Positions 320 to 45,281 of a stretch of 45,293 bases of DNA are shown piece after piece. A program made the position numbers and the translations under genes. The notes under the pieces were generated by a model. The model saw nothing but the letters and a program-made list of their open reading frames with translations, did no database searches and was not told where the DNA came from. The number at the start of each line of letters is the position of its first letter. Positions within the stretch are counted from its first letter, which is position 1. The DNA is from a virus: positions 1-45,293 of the IMG/VR virus record IMGVR_UViG_3300046727_000107; one strand, written 5' to 3'.

Positions 320-423
320 TTTCAAACGTTTGATTATCTTTGAAACATTATTGCTATTTGAAATAAAGTTTCAAACATAGCGCCGGCTTTGAAATGTAAT
401 TCAAACTAACTCGGGATTCAAAC
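320..423. repeat. TTTGAAA/TTTCAAA iteron-like array
   Basis: Seven copies of a TTTSAAAY core begin at 320, 339, 357, 369, 388, 400 and 417; the last two have ATTC in place of TTTC. A further copy is at 144-151. The steps between starts are 19, 18, 12, 19, 12 and 17 bases. The first copy is part of the perfect 12-bp palindrome TCAAACGTTTGA (322-333). No reading frame of convincing composition covers this stretch, and bases 424-552 lead into the Acb2-like gene. Binding sites for a second regulator or a replication initiator are likely. Confidence 0.65.
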
Positions 424-552
424 CAGAGAGGGACGGGTCGATGGGTTTTTATGGGTGTCCGTGAGATCCTCGCCCCAAAATTACAATTGACCCCTGCCGC
501 CGGATTTGTAATAGCTTCGCCGCGTTGCAGCCCAACCGCAAAGGAACTACCC

Positions 553-786
553 ATGTCCCTCGGTGAAACCCGCGTTCGCATCAGCTTCAACCCCAGCGCA
601 GACAGCGACGTCGACCGGATCAAAAACAAATCGGCCGAGCTGATCGACCTCGTGGATCGCTTGCCCGGCCCCAGCGGCGACGATCGCCAAGCCTACGGCG
701 AGTTCCGACGCCTCATGGCGTTGGCGCAGACCGCCTACGAGGAAGCCGCCATGTGGGCCGTCAAGGCCGCTACGGTGGCGAAGTAG
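553..786 (+). CDS. Acb2-type cyclic-nucleotide sponge (anti-CBASS), 77 aa
   Basis: This small helical protein matches the Acb2/Tad1 hairpin family as I remember it. It has an N-terminal FNPS turn (12-15), then a helix with the pattern VDRIKNKSAELIDLVD (20-35). After a variable Gly/Pro linker comes a second helix ending in LAQTAYEEAAMWAVKAAT (57-74); the E-x-A-x-MWAVK signature is the family hallmark. Known Acb2 proteins form hexamers that sequester the cyclic di- and trinucleotides made by CBASS, and some bind gcADPR from Thoeris, so host immune effectors stay inactive. The ATG at 553 is chosen because AAGGA lies 8 bases upstream; the open frame extends to 451 without a ribosome site. It is the first rightward gene after the control region, which fits early expression. 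The RyR-domain gene follows 40 bp later. Confidence 0.8.
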   Translation: MSLGETRVRISFNPSADSDVDRIKNKSAELIDLVDRLPGPSGDDRQAYGEFRRLMALAQTAYEEAAMWAVKAATVAK

Positions 787-826: not shown

Positions 827-1198
827 ATGCGTTCGATCGAAGGTATCGCCCGCGTATGCCACGAAGTGAACCGCGCGATCTGCGAGGCCGCTGGAGACGC
901 TAGCCAGCGCCCGTGGAACGAAGCCGAGCAGTGGCAGCGCGACAGCGCTGTCCAGGGCGTGCACTTCGCGATCAACAACCCGGATGCCACGGCCAGCGCC
1001 CAGCACGAGGCGTGGATGGCGGACAAGCGCGCGGACGGGTGGACCTGCGGCTCGGTCAAGGACGCCACGGCAAAGACCCACCCGTGCATGGTGCCTTACG
1101 ATCAGCTTCCGTTCGAGCAGCGGGTCAAAGACCACGCCTTCAAGGCCGTGGTGAGGGCGATGGCATCGCAAGCTACCACCCTAGCCACCACCCCCTGA
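827..1198 (+). CDS. RyR-domain protein, 123 aa
   Basis: The single domain matches the RyR (ryanodine-receptor repeat) family common in phages. Signature blocks are ARVCHEVNRAICEA (8-21), the WNEAEQWQRDSAVQGVHF stretch, an HEAWMADKRADGW block and the C-terminal HPCMVPYDQLPFEQRVKDHAF segment (roughly residues 85-106). RyR domains are predicted to bind nucleotide-derived ligands, possibly ADP-ribose-like; the role of the phage versions is not established. AAGGAAG occurs shortly before the ATG. Its neighbour upstream is an Acb2-type sponge and a terminator closes the unit downstream, so the two genes probably form a dedicated early transcript. A role in neutralising nucleotide immune signals is inference from that pairing. 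Confidence 0.8.
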   Translation: MRSIEGIARVCHEVNRAICEAAGDASQRPWNEAEQWQRDSAVQGVHFAINNPDATASAQHEAWMADKRADGWTCGSVKDATAKTHPCMVPYDQLPFEQRVKDHAFKAVVRAMASQATTLATTP

Positions 1199-1684: not shown

Positions 1685-1894
1685 ATGACCACCATGCACG
1701 CCGTCCAGTCCAGCAACCTCGCGGCCGTGGGCTACGACCCCGAGACCCTCACGCTGTCCATCCAGTTCAAATCGTCCCCGCGTCCCTACCGCTACGCCAA
1801 GGTGCCAGAGAGTGAGTACCAGTCGCTGATGGACGCCACGTCGCCCGGCCGCTATTTCCTTCAGAACATCAAAGACCAGTACGACGAGGTGTGA
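1685..1894 (+). CDS. KTSC-domain protein, 69 aa
   Basis: The protein is essentially one KTSC domain: VQSSNLAAVGYDPETLTLSI (7-26), a YRYAKVPESEY block and the closing GRYFLQNIKDQY segment. KTSC domains are small folds found alone in phages or fused to lysyl-tRNA synthetase; their activity is not known, although a nucleic-acid role has been suggested. The family usually has a Lys-Thr-Ser-Cys set of residues which is not fully kept here. No ribosome site is visible before the ATG; the transcript may be leaderless. The next gene begins two bases after this stop, making it the first gene of the packaging operon. Confidence 0.8.
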   Translation: MTTMHAVQSSNLAAVGYDPETLTLSIQFKSSPRPYRYAKVPESEYQSLMDATSPGRYFLQNIKDQYDEV

Positions 1895-2099: not shown

Positions 2100-4092
2100 C
2101 CTTGCCGCCAAGGAGCAGGCGCGCCAGCAGGCCATCCTGAAGTTCGGCAACGATCGCAAGCTGGCGCACGCCGTCCTGTTCGCCCACCGCCATCCCGACG
2201 CCACCCCACCGTTCCACCACGACATGATGGACGTGTGGCATGGTCCTTCGCGGCGCGTGCTGATCATGGCGCTGCGCGAGGGCGCGAAGTCGACGGTCGG
2301 CGAGGAGGAGATGATTCTCGACGCCGTGTTCCAGTCGTTCCACAACGCGGTGATCATCGGCGAGACCGCGGAACGTGCGGCCGATCGCCTGCGGGCCGTG
2401 AAGTACGAGTTGGAGTACAACGAGTTTTTGATAGAGCTGTTCGGCGGGATGAAGGGCACGACGTGGAACGAGGACAAGATCATCCTCCAGAACAACGTGT
2501 GCATACAGGCCAAGGGACGCGACCAGTCGTTCCGCGGCATCAAGCATCTCGACTGGCGCCCCGACTTCCTCTGGGTGGACGACTACGAGGACAAGGAGAG
2601 CGTCAAGACACCCGAGAGCCGCGACTTCTGGACCAAGAACTTCATGACCGTGATCGTGCCGGCCTGCGACAGGCGCGCAAAGATCCGCATCACCGGAACG
2701 CCACTGGATGACGACTGCATGCTCTACCGCCTGCGCAAGGAGCGCACGCAGGACGGTGGGCTGCGCTGGACCACACGCGAGTATCCGATCGAGTACATCA
2801 GCCCGGAGGGCGAGCGTACGCCGATATGGCCGGCGCGGTACCCGCTGGAGTACATCGACGAAGTCAAGCAGTCCTACGCCGAGCAAGGCTTGGCCGAGGA
2901 CTACCAGCGAGAGTACATGGTGCAGGCCAGCAATCCGCAGCTGCGCAAGTTCAAGGCCGAGCAGATGCACGTCGTGCCGCACATCCGGACATGGCAGCCG
3001 ACGCTCGCGGTCTACGACCCCGCGCGCACGACGAACCAGAAGACGTCGTCGATGACCGGACACGTCGTCGCCAGTTGGATCGGCAACAAGCTGGTGGTGT
3101 GGGAGGCGGGCGGGCGGTTCATGCTGCCCGATGCGCTGATCGCCGATCTGTTCCGGGTGGAGGAGACCTACAGCCCGGTCGAGATCGGCGTGGAGGAGAC
3201 CGGGCTGAACGAGTGGATCATGCAGCCGCTGCGTCATGAGCAGTTGCGCCGGCGCATCATGCTGCCGCTGCGCGCCATCAACGCGCCGAAAGGCAAGATC
3301 GACTTCATCGGATCGCTCCAGCCGTTCTTCGCCGCGGGCGAGGTGGAGTTTGCCGTCGAGCTGCCCGAGCTGAAGAAGCAGCTGCTGTCGTTCCCGACCG
3401 GGCGGCTCGACGTTCCCAACGCGCTTGCCTACCTCCTGAAGATGCGGCCGGGCCTGCCGGTGCTCGACGGGTTCGGCGCGATGAACGTGGTGGAGGATCT
3501 GCCGCGCGTCTCCAGCCGGCCGTACTACCTGGCGCTCAACGCCGACAAGGGCGTGGTGTCGGCGATCCTGTGCCAGCACGTCGACGGTGCACTGTGGGTG
3601 CTGGCCGACTGGCTGCGCGAGGGCGACCCCGGCGAGGTGCTCGGCGGCATCGTCACCGACGTGTCCATGGAGATCGGCAGGACACCCAGGCCGGTGGCCG
3701 GGCTCCAGCACTTCAAGCCGTTCGATACCATCGGCCTGATGGCGGCGGCGCGGCGAGTGCCGATCGACGTCAACAGCGGTGGCGAGCTGCTGCACGGCCG
3801 CGAGGAGCTGCGCAAGTACATGCGCGCCATGCGGCACGGACAGCCGGCGCTGCTGATCGCCAGCCGGGCGTCGTGGACGCTGCGCGCGCTCTCGGGTGGC
3901 TATGCGCGCAAGGTGGTGAAGGGCGGCGTCCTGAACGGCGAGCCGGTGGAGAATGTCTACAAGGTGCTGATCGAGGGCCTGGAGACATTTGCCGGGCTCT
4001 TGCCCTCGACCGCCGAGCGGGATATGGATGACAGTCCCCATTATGCGGTCAACGACCGGGGCGTCCGCTACATGACGGCATTGCCACGCTGA
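2092..4092 (+). CDS. Terminase large subunit (TerL), 666 aa
   Basis: This is the ATP-driven DNA packaging motor and headful or end-cutting nuclease. An atypical Walker A motif LREGAKST spans 61-68, Walker B FLWVDDYE spans 159-166 and the coupling motif TGTP spans 201-204. The nuclease half begins around residue 305 with the acidic LAVYDPAR segment and continues with VEETGLNEW. The last 190 or so residues (from about 475, RPYYLALNADKG) form an extra domain that most TerL proteins of 450-550 residues lack; its layout of strands resembles the preceding RNase-H-type domain. The start is the ATG at 2092, overlapping the previous gene. The stop overlaps the portal start (TGATG). Confidence 0.9.
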   Translation: MDDLAAKEQARQQAILKFGNDRKLAHAVLFAHRHPDATPPFHHDMMDVWHGPSRRVLIMALREGAKSTVGEEEMILDAVFQSFHNAVIIGETAERAADRLRAVKYELEYNEFLIELFGGMKGTTWNEDKIILQNNVCIQAKGRDQSFRGIKHLDWRPDFLWVDDYEDKESVKTPESRDFWTKNFMTVIVPACDRRAKIRITGTPLDDDCMLYRLRKERTQDGGLRWTTREYPIEYISPEGERTPIWPARYPLEYIDEVKQSYAEQGLAEDYQREYMVQASNPQLRKFKAEQMHVVPHIRTWQPTLAVYDPARTTNQKTSSMTGHVVASWIGNKLVVWEAGGRFMLPDALIADLFRVEETYSPVEIGVEETGLNEWIMQPLRHEQLRRRIMLPLRAINAPKGKIDFIGSLQPFFAAGEVEFAVELPELKKQLLSFPTGRLDVPNALAYLLKMRPGLPVLDGFGAMNVVEDLPRVSSRPYYLALNADKGVVSAILCQHVDGALWVLADWLREGDPGEVLGGIVTDVSMEIGRTPRPVAGLQHFKPFDTIGLMAAARRVPIDVNSGGELLHGREELRKYMRAMRHGQPALLIASRASWTLRALSGGYARKVVKGGVLNGEPVENVYKVLIEGLETFAGLLPSTAERDMDDSPHYAVNDRGVRYMTALPR

Positions 4093-6362
4093 TGGCCCGA
4101 CGATCGCGCAAATCCGCCAAGCTTGCTCGCGACCCGCGCAGCGACGCGGAGACGCCCGAGCCGGATGCCGACGACGCCCTGTCCGCCATCGGCGATAATA
4201 GCGAGGGCGTCGACACTGACAAGGAGAACGCCAAGGAGGAAGACCGCGACGCGCAGCTCTGCGGCGTCGATGAGATCCACGACGCATTGGTCGAGTTGTA
4301 CGATGATATCGAGGGCGGGTTCAACAACCAGGCCGACCGCTCCGACGACATCATGGACTACTGGGACTTGTACAATTGCAAGATGGGCGGGCGGCAGGCG
4401 TACGCCGGCAACAGCAAGATTTTCGTGCCGATCATCACCAACGCCGTCAACGCGCGCAAGACGCGCTTCACCAACCAGATTTTCCCGCAGTCGGGGCGCA
4501 ACGTCGAGTGCACTACCAGCGAGGACAAACCGAACGAGTTGATCGCGCTGCTGGAGCACTATATCCGCCGCGCCAAGCTGCGCACGCAGGTGATGCCCGC
4601 GCTGATGAAGAACGGCGACATTGAAGGGCAGTACAACATTTGCGTCTCGTGGGGCTCGACCAAGCGCACCGTGACGCAGCGTGTCACCAAGCCGCTTCAG
4701 CCGGCCGGCCAGGAGCCGATCCCCGGCACCGACGACGACGACATCGAGGAGGAGACCGTCGAGCGCGCGTGCCCGATCGTCGAGGTGCTCGGCGACAGCG
4801 ACGTGCTGGTGCTGCCGGAGACCGCGAACAGCATCGAGGATGCGATCTACGAGCAGGGTGGCTCGGTGACGGTGATCCGGCGCTGGAGCAAGTCGAAGAT
4901 CAAGAAGATGATCGCTGACGAGGAGATCGAGGAGGAAGCTGGCGAGAAACTGCTCGGCATGTTCACCGACAACGACGGGCCGATGCGCGAGGACAAGCCG
5001 AAGAAGATGATCGATGCCGCCGGCATCCAGACGCAGAATGGCACCAAGTACGCGCTGATCTACGAGACCTACACGCTGCTCACCTACAACGACGAGCGCC
5101 GGCTCTACAAGGCGTTCTTCGGCGCTCCGCAACTGATCGTCGGGTGCAAGCGCAACCCGTACTGGTCCGACCGCTGTCCGATCCTGTCGGTGCCGGTGGA
5201 GAAGGTGCAGGGCTCGTTCAAGGGCATCTCGAAGCTCAAGCCGTGCGCCGACATGCAGTACGCCGCCAACGATGCGGTGAACGAGGGCATGGACTCGGCG
5301 GCCTACTCCATGCTGCCGATCATCATGACCGATCCGCTGAAGAACCCGCGCATCGGCACGATGGTGCTCAATCTCGCGGCGATCTGGGAGACCAACCCGA
5401 ACGACACGCAGTTCGCGCAGTTTCCAGAATTGTGGAAGTCGGCGTTCGAGGTAGTCGGCGCGTGCGAGCAGAAAATCAACCAGACGCTCAGCGTGTCGCC
5501 CGCTGTGATGCCGCAGTCGACGTCGACCGCGCAGCGGCGCAACCAGGCCGAGCTGGCGCAGGAGGCACAGGTCGACATCCTCTCGACCGCCGACGCCGTC
5601 ACGGTGGTGGAGGAGGGCGTGCTGACGCCGCTGCTTCAGTGGTTCGTCGAGCTGGATCACCAGTTCCGCGACAAGCCGATGACTGTGCGCGAGTACGGCG
5701 AGATGGGCGTGATCCTCAATATGCAGGAGATCAAGCCGGTTCAGATGAACAAGCGGTTCGAGTTCCGTTGGTTCGGCGTCGAGAGCGCGCGCAACGCGCA
5801 GCAGGTGCAGCAGCAGATCGCCACCATGAACGTGCTGCGTGGCATCCCGCCGGAGCAGTATGAAGGCTACAAGCTCAACATGCGCCCGATCATGGCGCAG
5901 ATGGTCGACAACGCGTTCGGCTCGCGCATGGCACCGGAGATTTTCCAGAACATGCGCAGCCAGCTCAGCAACGAGCCGCAGCTTGAGAATACGATGCTGC
6001 TCGACGGGTTCGATCTGCCGGTGCATCCGCTCGACGAAGACGCGCAGCATCTCCAGGCACACGCGCAGATCATGCAGAACGGAGATCCGACTGGCATGAT
6101 TCGCGTGCACATGGCCAAGCACATCGCGCAGCTCTCGCAGAAAACGCAGCAGCAGGCGATGATGCAGCAGCAACAGCAGATGCAGCAGGGCATGCCGGGC
6201 GTGCCCGGCGGCGCGGGTCCAGGCGGCCCGCAGCCGGCGCCAGGGGTCGCCGGGTCGCCGCGCATCGGCGCGCAGCCGCAGATGCCAACCGGTGGCCAGG
6301 GTCCGCCCGGCATGATTCACCACGACCAGCTCAACGGCGCGGGGATTGCTCCGCGGCGTTGA
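4092..6362 (+). CDS. Portal protein, 756 aa
   Basis: This dodecameric head-tail connector is the docking site of terminase. Assignment rests on position directly after TerL (overlapping TGATG), a length like that of P22 or N4 portals (725-763), and the acidic N-terminus before a helical crown region. Recognisable segments are YAGNSKIFVPIITNAVNARK near residue 105 and a central block with MQYAANDAVNEGMDSAAY. The C-terminus from about residue 680 is a run of Gln and Met followed by Gly/Pro-rich sequence, as in many portals with a flexible barrel end. I did not confirm a particular portal family. Confidence 0.85.
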   Translation: MARRSRKSAKLARDPRSDAETPEPDADDALSAIGDNSEGVDTDKENAKEEDRDAQLCGVDEIHDALVELYDDIEGGFNNQADRSDDIMDYWDLYNCKMGGRQAYAGNSKIFVPIITNAVNARKTRFTNQIFPQSGRNVECTTSEDKPNELIALLEHYIRRAKLRTQVMPALMKNGDIEGQYNICVSWGSTKRTVTQRVTKPLQPAGQEPIPGTDDDDIEEETVERACPIVEVLGDSDVLVLPETANSIEDAIYEQGGSVTVIRRWSKSKIKKMIADEEIEEEAGEKLLGMFTDNDGPMREDKPKKMIDAAGIQTQNGTKYALIYETYTLLTYNDERRLYKAFFGAPQLIVGCKRNPYWSDRCPILSVPVEKVQGSFKGISKLKPCADMQYAANDAVNEGMDSAAYSMLPIIMTDPLKNPRIGTMVLNLAAIWETNPNDTQFAQFPELWKSAFEVVGACEQKINQTLSVSPAVMPQSTSTAQRRNQAELAQEAQVDILSTADAVTVVEEGVLTPLLQWFVELDHQFRDKPMTVREYGEMGVILNMQEIKPVQMNKRFEFRWFGVESARNAQQVQQQIATMNVLRGIPPEQYEGYKLNMRPIMAQMVDNAFGSRMAPEIFQNMRSQLSNEPQLENTMLLDGFDLPVHPLDEDAQHLQAHAQIMQNGDPTGMIRVHMAKHIAQLSQKTQQQAMMQQQQQMQQGMPGVPGGAGPGGPQPAPGVAGSPRIGAQPQMPTGGQGPPGMIHHDQLNGAGIAPRR

Positions 6363-42094: not shown

Positions 42095-42400
42095 TTATTG
42101 CGTATTTGCGTCAAGCCTAGCAAACAGGCGCGGGTGTAGCTTGCGCGCCAGAGGTTCGCCGATTCGTCGGCACTTGCGCAGATAGCCGCGATCGACCATG
42201 CCAACCGATGTATCGCTGTTGAGGTGTGCGAAGGTCGCCACCAGCCCCTCATGCATGGCGCCACGGCGATACTCGTCACCAACGAACAGCGCGATGACGT
42301 TGCACTGCTTGCCGGCGGTCGCGGCAAGCTCCAGTTGCTTGCGCGTCGTGCGCTGCGGAAACGTTTCGTCCAGGTCAGCATAGAATCGATATCCGTTCAT
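42095..42400 (-). CDS. Hypothetical protein, 101 aa
   Basis: GGAGGAAGACCA directly precedes the ATG at 42400, so the longer frame is discarded. The start YRFYADLDETFPQRTTRKQL looks like a strand-helix, followed by CNVIALFVGDEYRRGAMHEG and a basic LRKCRRIGEPLARKLHPRLF end. No family recognised. It overlaps the HTH gene by ATGA and ends in a gene-free leader region. Confidence 0.65.
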   Translation of the reverse strand: MNGYRFYADLDETFPQRTTRKQLELAATAGKQCNVIALFVGDEYRRGAMHEGLVATFAHLNSDTSVGMVDRGYLRKCRRIGEPLARKLHPRLFARLDANTQ

Positions 42401-42669
42401 TGGTCTTCCTCCATCGCTCTGGCGATCGGGATAATATGGGCGAACAGAAGCGTCAGGTGGCTGGACCACCGGGTGTCGATCGGAGTCGTTCCGCGCTCCA
42501 GACGCGAGACGGTGGTCTCGGTGGTACCGAGGAGATCCGCAAGGGCGCGCTGGCTGATGCCGGCGAGGTGGCGGGCTTGCGTGAGGTGCCACGTGGTCGT
42601 GATGGCGCCACGCGAAGGCATTTGCGCCTCCGGTGGCGGCTCGTAGGCGTTGGGGAGGGAGAAGGTCAT
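42397..42669 (-). CDS. XRE-family HTH regulator, 90 aa
   Basis: The helix-turn-helix spans about residues 27-65: LTQARHLAGISQRALADLLG, then TTETTVSRLERGTTPI. The R-x-LAG-S-Q-x-ALA-x-LLG-x-x-x-x-TVSR-x-ERG pattern is typical of Cro/CI-like repressors. The C-terminal helix LLFAHIIPIARAMEED may dimerise. GAAGG lies before the ATG, which overlaps the previous stop (ATGA). One of at least three DNA-binding regulators in the early block. Confidence 0.8.
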   Translation of the reverse strand: MTFSLPNAYEPPPEAQMPSRGAITTTWHLTQARHLAGISQRALADLLGTTETTVSRLERGTTPIDTRWSSHLTLLFAHIIPIARAMEEDQ

Positions 42670-42875
42670 TTGTTCACCTTCGCAAGTGCGATCCACGCTG
42701 CGTTCAATTGTGCCAAGCGGCGCATGGTTTCGGGGTCGCGTTGACGAATCTCCAGATCAAAATGATCGGAAAGCCACACGAGATTTTCGCCGAGTGCTGA
42801 TTCAGCAAGTGCAATCGCGGCGCGTTGGTCGTTCGCCAGTTGTGCGCCGGCAGCAAGCGATTGAGCGGGGGTCAT
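42666..42875 (-). CDS. Small helical protein, 69 aa
   Basis: AAAGGACC precedes the ATG at 42875. All-helical: AQSLAAGAQLANDQRAAIAL (4-23), then HFDLEIRQRDPETMRRLAQL. Overlaps neighbours on both sides by ATGA. Family unknown. Confidence 0.55.
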   Translation of the reverse strand: MTPAQSLAAGAQLANDQRAAIALAESALGENLVWLSDHFDLEIRQRDPETMRRLAQLNAAWIALAKVNK

Positions 42876-44605: not shown

Positions 44606-45094
44606 CTAGTCCGGTATGCGCTCGGGCTCGTTCGTAAACGCGTCTGTGCGACAGTCACTCGTCAGGGCGCGGATCTTTTGGCGCCACGGCCCAAGCGAGC
44701 CATCCGGGCGCAGCTGGCTTTCCCAATAGCGCGCGTTCGTGAGAACCTGCATAACCGGGTTCGTGATGTCCTTGGTCCATTCGTCATTCAGCCACTTGTA
44801 CGCGGGCTCGCGCGCTAGCGTAGGGATCGGCGCGACCGTGGTTCGCACGATGTCAGGTCCGACTGCCACCTCGACGGTGGCGCCGTGCTTTTCGATCCAC
44901 GCGAAGAGCAAGCCGTAGTGCCTGGCATTCGGCAGAGTGATTGCCTTGGCGCCACGTTCGATCTTGCTCAAGCTCTGTTCGTGGATGCCAACCATGTCTG
45001 CCAGGGCGGCTTGTGAGAGTTTTAGTGCTATACGGCGTCGTTTGATTTCGGCGCCAGTCAGAACGGGCAGTGGAATCGATGAGCGCAGTGACAT
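44606..45094 (-). CDS. XRE-family HTH regulator, probable early repressor, 162 aa
   Basis: The HTH lies at 15-50: AEIKRRRIALKLSQAALADM, then VGIHEQSLSKIERGAKAI, a standard Cro/CI-type module. The remainder (WIEKHGATVEVAVGPDIV, then KWLNDEWTKDITNPVMQVLT) is a partner or effector domain without a visible LexA-type cleavage site (no Ala-Gly with Ser/Lys pattern recognised). First gene of the leftward block, directly downstream of a consensus promoter covered by GGCTTA palindromes, which makes it the best candidate for the protein that binds them. Alternatively it activates or represses rightward genes. Confidence 0.8.
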   Translation of the reverse strand: MSLRSSIPLPVLTGAEIKRRRIALKLSQAALADMVGIHEQSLSKIERGAKAITLPNARHYGLLFAWIEKHGATVEVAVGPDIVRTTVAPIPTLAREPAYKWLNDEWTKDITNPVMQVLTNARYWESQLRPDGSLGPWRQKIRALTSDCRTDAFTNEPERIPD

Positions 45095-45117
45095 TTGCAG
45101 TCTCCAGATTGATTATG

Positions 45118-45245
45118 TAAGCCAGCGGCTTATAAGCCAACGGCTTAAGCCTGTCAACGGCTTAGTCCAAAAACATGGTTTTTGACCATTTGGCTTAGTA
45201 AGTCATTGGCTTAGTGTTTGAATACAGGCTTAAGCCGTCGGCTTA
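45118..45245. repeat. GGCTTA/TAAGCC operator-like array, right part
   Basis: Hexamers lie at 45118, 45127, 45133, 45142, 45146, 45159, 45192, 45208, 45227, 45231 and 45240 (start positions, either orientation; some pairs overlap). Perfect palindromes are GGCTTATAAGCC (45127-45138) and GGCTTAAGCC (45142-45151 and 45227-45236). Together with positions 83-141 the array spans about 315 bp across the join of the ends. Confidence 0.8.
45129..45157 (-). promoter_or_regulatory. Consensus sigma-70-type promoter of the leftward block
   Basis: On the minus strand TTGACA (45157-45152) is followed by exactly 17 bases and TATAAG (45134-45129), five of six matching TATAAT. The -10 lies inside the palindrome GGCTTATAAGCC and the spacer holds GGCTTAAGCC, so a protein bound to either would block RNA polymerase. 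The regulator gene starts about 35 bases downstream of the -10. Confidence 0.8.
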
Positions 45246-45281
45246 CTATTGACAAAATTCCGTTGAACTACGCAAGTGGTC

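Follow-up and report, generated by a model that had tools for sequence, protein, structure and literature searches.

The DNA analysed here, called the window throughout, is the whole of record IMGVR_UViG_3300046727_000107, a stretch of 45,293 bases from an uncultivated phage. Its first 12 bases are identical to its last 12. We accept that the genome joins across these ends because of this terminal identity and because, in relatives such as L015 and L082, the HTH gene, the array and the rightward genes are contiguous in a single contig. (L numbers denote relatives, that is, loci collected with terminase profiles, 33 and then 80, most of them at 40–48% identity.) The genome has a GC content of 62%, and the interval between the ATG at 45094 and the first rightward gene is AT-rich. 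Copies of the hexamer GGCTTA form an array here, between the early and late genes. The features of the locus are as follows.

42397–42696, minus strand: second XRE protein, 99 aa (HTH_31, 9e-8; HTH_3, 1e-7), sharing a leftward module with the next gene
44606–45094, minus strand: XRE regulator, 162 aa (HTH_3), which heads the leftward early module; proposed binder of the array
45118–45132 and 45133–45147: two back-to-back 15-bp TAAGCC-N3-GGCTTA dyads, nearest the XRE start codon, with GGCTTATAAGCC at their junction
45129–45157, minus strand: predicted sigma-70 promoter TTGACA-N17-TATAAG, 11/12 match to consensus, leftward into the XRE gene
45118–45281: left part of the array, 11 exact GGCTTA/TAAGCC copies plus one mismatched copy at 45199, reaching the join
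45231–45245: third 15-bp TAAGCC-N3-GGCTTA dyad, overlapping GGCTTAAGCC at 45227–45236
83–281: right part of the array past the join, with TAAGCC-A-GGCTTA dyads at 83–95 and 109–121 and single copies at 136 and 276
142–222: AT-rich tract (TATATAGTATATAGTATATTCTAATTAAATAAATAATAATAATAATAACAG), within the limits of the array
144–423: TTTGAAA/TTTCAAA repeat family, comprising all six copies in the genome (144–394) and TTCAAAC variants
407–455, plus strand: element AACTCGGG-N~34-TTTTTATG, common to the control regions of many relatives
553–786, plus strand: first rightward gene, an Acb2/Tad1 hairpin-domain protein (PF24729, 3e-12; ORF 451–786, with ATG 553 chosen by ribosome-site position)
827–1198, plus strand: RyR-domain phage protein (PF02026, 2e-11; phrog_5154, 5e-47)
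1685–1894, plus strand: small KTSC-domain protein (PF13619)

The 162-aa regulator matches PF01381 (HTH_3) with an E value of 3e-10 and a score of 40.4 bits, above the curated cut-off of 23, which places it in this family, and its PDB matches are 434 Cro, P22 C2 and C.BclI. Its recognition helix reads GIHEQSLSKIERG. No full-length relative was found in viral contigs, phages or terminase relatives, and a plasmid search returned only a 45-aa HTH match. A single-sequence structure prediction of the protein was discarded (mean pLDDT 37). Other genes of the leftward module encode a PolA-type polymerase, an exonuclease, a helicase and a primase/helicase. On the rightward side, the Acb2/Tad1 hairpin-domain protein is possibly an anti-CBASS/Thoeris sponge, and the KTSC gene is followed by genes for the large terminase, a weak match to a head–tail adaptor and the major head protein. 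Small ORFs that look similar to the KTSC gene were seen right before the terminase in L015 (3553–3753), L051 (4573–4770) and L089 (4140–4352).

Counting both strands, GGCTTA/TAAGCC occurs 21 times in the window, compared to 10 ± 3.4 (maximum 19) in shuffles of the whole window. Seventeen of these copies fall between 45118 and 281, within ∼440 bp across the 12-bp end overlap, and 16 are packed into 305 bp; the other four lie elsewhere. From local dinucleotide composition, only 0.74 copies would be expected in the 747-bp intergenic region. The original prediction, which placed 16 hexamers in about 315 bp over both window ends, is thus confirmed, with the count raised to 17 and the end of the array set at 281. 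Copies are present in both orientations, with an excess of short inverted pairs: TAAGCC-N3-GGCTTA dyads (15 bp) start at 45118, 45133 and 45231, TAAGCC-N1-GGCTTA dyads (13 bp) start at 83 and 109, and the palindromes GGCTTATAAGCC and GGCTTAAGCC lie at 45127 and at 45142 and 45227, respectively. Given 17 randomly placed sites, the concentration of the two inverted spacings has P ∼0.004. A genome-wide search for the paired hexamer, proposed earlier as a check, found every pair confined to the array and none elsewhere (TAAGCC-N0–8-GGCTTA or GGCTTA-N0–8-TAAGCC). Tandem TAAGCC-N3-GGCTTA dyads were absent from viral contigs in an exact pattern search. The bases flanking the hexamers show no conservation, and the array is therefore a scatter of short sites, not a longer repeat in several copies.

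The part of the array nearest the XRE gene is superimposed on the predicted promoter. On the minus strand, the TTGACA box occupies 45157–45152 and the TATAAG box 45134–45129; only two sites in the genome, this one included, match at least 11 of the 12 promoter positions. The 12-bp palindrome GGCTTATAAGCC (45127–45138) covers the −10 element, and the 10-bp palindrome GGCTTAAGCC (45142–45151) lies in the spacer, directly next to the −35 element, without filling it completely. Palindromes on the −10 and in the spacer of a near-perfect promoter into the XRE gene had been claimed originally, and both the match and the positions hold. The XRE gene itself starts at ATG 45094, with GGAG at 45105–45102. 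As in lambda-type systems, then, several similar dyads (45118–45147, over −10 and spacer) overlie the regulator's own promoter.

Many relatives share the gene order seen here: an HTH gene reading leftward, an AT-rich region, small rightward genes and the terminase. L015 is the clearest of them, being continuous over the stretch equivalent to the join in the window. The window shares an XRE-type HTH gene on the minus strand, to the left of the AT-rich region, with L015, L022, L048, L049, L051/52, L060 and its relatives, L062, L082, L084, L095, L096 and L103. We measured hexamer enrichment in the control regions against 200 dinucleotide shuffles per locus. Arrays unmatched in any of the 200 shuffles were found in L082 (GCATAG, 18 copies), L051 (TGTAAG, 11), L015 (TGTGCA, 11), L110 (TTGCTA, 9), L103 (AACCTA, 7) and L048 (GCATAG, 6). 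Enrichment was also seen in L096 (TAGCCA, 6 copies, shuffle P = 0.005) and L022 (ACATTT, 7 copies, P = 0.01), was weak in L084 (TGTAAA, 6 copies, P = 0.08) and was not significant in the control region of L049 (P = 0.25). For L089, CTGTCA (11 copies) is enriched by a Poisson measure. An array is thus frequent in the relatives without being universal, several having none that is visible. No HTH_3 match was found beside the L110 and L089 arrays, and in L082 and L051 the XRE gene is separated from the array by other genes.

Dyads of the 6-N3-6 and 6-N1-6 forms recur in these arrays. CTATGC-N3-GCATAG is present twice in L082 and TGTGCA-N3-TGCACA is present in L015, and N1 dyads are found in L051 (CTTACA-N1-TGTAAG) and L084 (TTTACA-N1-TGTAAA). 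In four cases (the window, L015, L084 and L082), the first leftward gene has one of these dyads a short distance upstream. Conserved spacing in related phages had been proposed as a check; the dyad forms do recur, but spacings within the arrays are heterogeneous, which is unusual for a simple dimer operator. In L015, ACTAAGC occurs seven times (1967–2535) and overlaps the GGCTTA motif of the window, though the XRE-linked word of L015 is TGTGCAG. We rejected ACTAAGC as a common site of the window and L015 (seven copies in each region), as it belongs to the window's own motif. Also left unused were arrays in L016–L020 (downstream of the terminase), L022 (4490–4850) and L031 (5950–6260), which are located away from the control region and resemble coding repeats within genes. 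As comparators, we set aside Curvibacter phage TJ1 and the Manatee Spring phages: the latter have the same divergent module layout, but the switch carries no HTH_3 gene and no similar array was found.

Comparisons among these phages suggest that the array motif tracks the recognition helix of the XRE protein and not phylogeny. L048 and L051 have terminases that are 92% identical, and the conserved parts of their control regions can still be aligned around the array positions. Their arrays are built of GCATAG and TGTAAG, respectively, and their XRE helices read VTRLTVYNWEKG and VSRQAIIKWEKG. L082, with a terminase 76% identical to that of L048, shares GCATAG with it, and its helix (VSRLTVSNWERG, compared to VTRLTVYNWEKG in L048) is of the same RLTV-NWE type. 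Yet when whole XRE proteins are aligned, that of L082 fits the L051 protein better (38% identity over 104 residues) than the L048 protein (39% over only 46). In L084, the helix is VSRQSYIAWEKG and the word is TGTAAA, one base off the TGTAAG of L051. A scan for new helix/motif pairs, using the GCATAG-array pattern, returned 38 contigs, and an XRE gene was found near the array only in L082, already known. The case for co-variation is thus built on a strong pair (L048/L082) and a weak one (L051/L084). Dense CTATGC arrays, with 12–18 copies per 600 bp, were seen in contigs collected by pattern only, L138 (8609), L169 (3736), L161 (529) and L149 (1302), with no XRE gene detected nearby.

Because a motif that follows the helix is what binding would be expected to produce, we infer that the XRE protein binds the array. 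For the window, the link between its XRE protein and GGCTTA is drawn by position and analogy, since this protein has no detectable full-length relative. Taken with the layout and the promoter match, the co-variation of motif and helix points to the array being, quite probably, the operator region of the adjacent 162-aa XRE regulator at the early/late control region.

Iteron-type replication origins provide one alternative, raised in the original prediction. Here the hexamers would be initiator sites beside an unwinding element rich in AT, and the initiator, be it the XRE-like protein or some other protein of the phage, would autoregulate via the inverted copies. There is indeed an AT-rich tract within the array (142–222), and most control regions examined contain one. 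Moreover, iteron systems likewise co-vary with their initiators and autoregulate through inverted copies. On the other hand, direct-repeat spacings in the array, checked for regular iteron spacing, range from 7 to 14 and lack any period, the sites are of mixed orientation with prominent short inverted pairs, and no Rep-type initiator is adjacent. The XRE/HTH_3 proteins (99–266 aa) carry no initiator domain, and XRE proteins are not known to act as initiators. The phage also has a PolA-type polymerase, a primase/helicase and a helicase of its own, and L049, L060 and L062 have the AT-rich region with no significant array. These data argue against the iteron reading, which we regard as unlikely, although an origin within the AT tract beside the array is possible. 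The tract itself may be a rightward promoter or a DNA-unwinding element.

If the array is an operator region, as we favour, a second question is which protein binds it. The 99-aa XRE protein is encoded downstream in the same leftward module, and L022 and L062 likewise have two HTH proteins there, so the array might be bound by this protein or another phage regulator, with the 162-aa protein acting on TTTGAAA or elsewhere. However, it is the promoter of the 162-aa gene that the array overlaps, and the XRE protein linked to the motif in L048, L051, L015 and L084, which has an extended C-terminal part, is the one encoded at or near the region. TTTGAAA, for its part, is enriched across 17 control regions (27 observed, 3.9 expected) whatever the XRE type. 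Because this enrichment is independent of XRE type, TTTGAAA is a family-wide element, and neither XRE protein is likely to have it as its specific site. In the window, pairs of this repeat family with N5 spacing lie at 357–375 and 388–405. Overall, binding by a regulator other than the 162-aa protein seems rather improbable.

Further conserved signals adjoin the array. In many relatives, noncoding DNA 0.5–2.8 kb before the terminase contains the AACTCGGG box followed, about 30 bases on, by ATTTTTATG; the box was the search term, so the independent evidence is the downstream ATTTTTATG only. Box positions include L048 1674, L051 2735, L066 2633, L068 3489, L070 2229, L082 2752, L024 6517 and L032 7439, among others, and in L051 the element lies ∼120 bp before an endonuclease VII-type gene. 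The AACTCGGG...TTTTTATG element may be a packaging (cos/pac) site or a late-region signal. A conserved core of ∼110 bp with near-inverted arms (GGTATCCTTTTTCAAAATAATACTACTACT) was seen within the control regions of L048 (1300–1412), L051 (2373–2485), L084 (2220–2340) and L082 (2384–2510), and possibly represents divergent promoters or an origin. Repeats of other kinds were also seen. L023 carries the palindromic repeat GTAACGTTACGCGTAACGTTACG twice at 3790–3880, apparently inside an ORF and resembling in-gene origin repeats, and L019, at 4290–4440 and immediately before the terminase, has GGCCGGGGGGTA repeated in tandem and CGACAAAATGAGTGTGGTACCAGA as three direct repeats.

That the array has another repeat family and a packaging-like element beside it, and that dense hexamer arrays occur in unrelated contigs without XRE genes, raises the prospect that the repeats are a partition, packaging or structural element, or the product of neutral repeat expansion, and not XRE sites. 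We give this little credence. No ParA-type ATPase was found in the record, the motif changes with the XRE helix whereas the packaging-like element is constant, and the repeats are scattered short words with unrelated flanks, not tandem units.

How might an XRE operator array of this kind work? We envisage XRE dimers on the 15-bp TAAGCC-N3-GGCTTA and 13-bp TAAGCC-N1-GGCTTA dyads. Those at 45118–45147 lie over the leftward −10, such that the protein, on accumulating, would silence the gene that encodes it together with the leftward early operon (negative autoregulation). On the remaining sites, over ∼400 bp up to the AT-rich rightward start, bound protein may spread or loop, giving joint control of early and possibly late transcription.

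Does the array then control lysogeny? No match to a tyrosine integrase (PF00589) or a ParA-type ATPase (PF13614) was found in the record, whereas a lambda-type temperate phage has an integrase or partition system. Among 84,980 bacterial and archaeal genomes, only three terminase relatives were found, two on contigs of 41–43 kb, about the size of a phage genome, and one on a contig of 3.5 kb, and thus nothing points to an integrated prophage. A lysogeny role for the array is unproven, because neither a tyrosine integrase nor ParA was found. Hence, of the autoregulated switch originally envisaged, the co-variation of motif and helix supports a regulator-bound dyad array with more sites than lambda, but not the lysogenic sense of the term. 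In a phage with no recognised integrase, control of early/late timing or a block to superinfection is more likely than a lysogeny switch.

Considered together, these loci may represent a lineage of apparently non-integrating phages with a fast-evolving XRE gene and an operator cassette of 6–18 copies at the early/late boundary, in which word swaps between near-identical phages would amount to heteroimmune-type diversification without recognised lysogeny genes. We offer this idea tentatively and would not yet bet on it. More generally, the arrays tie an orphan metagenomic phage group to a testable regulatory code, in which several natural XRE proteins, each beside its own repeated word, yield operator predictions without footprinting. 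If the cassettes do act as immunity regions in non-integrating phages, one may ask what purpose they serve, be it superinfection control, early/late timing or plasmid-like persistence. The density of the arrays also prompts the question of why so many sites persist where lambda needs three.

Several known systems combine regulators and repeats in comparable ways. The C proteins of restriction-modification systems (C.BclI, PDB 2b5a) are likewise small XRE-type regulators with autoregulatory dyads at their own promoters, but here no restriction or methylase partner gene was recognised beside the XRE gene and the sites are many more. Iteron origins (the lambda O iterons, iteron plasmids) resemble the array in having repeats by an AT-rich tract and inverted copies over a neighbour's promoter; they differ in that the spacing here is irregular, the core is 6 bp and the protein is an XRE regulator rather than a Rep-type initiator.

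The 6-N3-6 dyad resembles the half-site geometry of lambdoid-class operators. In lambdoid immunity regions (lambda, 434, P22 C2/Cro, CP-933P PaaR2/YdaS), as here, an XRE/HTH_3 gene heads an operon, short dyads lie over its promoter, and a change of DNA motif from one related phage to another goes with a change of recognition helix. Unlike these regions, with three operators in lambda or four in CP-933P, the window has 17 half-sites in 440 bp. Moreover, a lone leftward XRE gene, the only one flanking the control region, stands at the divergent boundary in place of a divergent CI/Cro pair, no integrase was found, and the divergent partner side leads to late genes (terminase, capsid). In the lambdoid prophage CP-933P, four inverted repeats lie between divergent regulators (PMC8630535). 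In Cluster A mycobacteriophages (L5, Bxb1), the repressor and the consensus of its 20–30 dispersed sites differ together between phages, and these stoperators are asymmetric, genome-wide and oriented along transcription (PMC6550527). The likeness to the stoperator system is that a single repressor has many cognate sites, with a consensus that varies along with it; in the window, by contrast, the sites form dyads, occur in both orientations and are gathered in one control region, with four of the 21 hexamers outside it. Although it differs from both in site number, in clustering and in having no recognised lysogeny genes, the array with its XRE regulator is closest in logic to the CP-933P and Cluster A systems.
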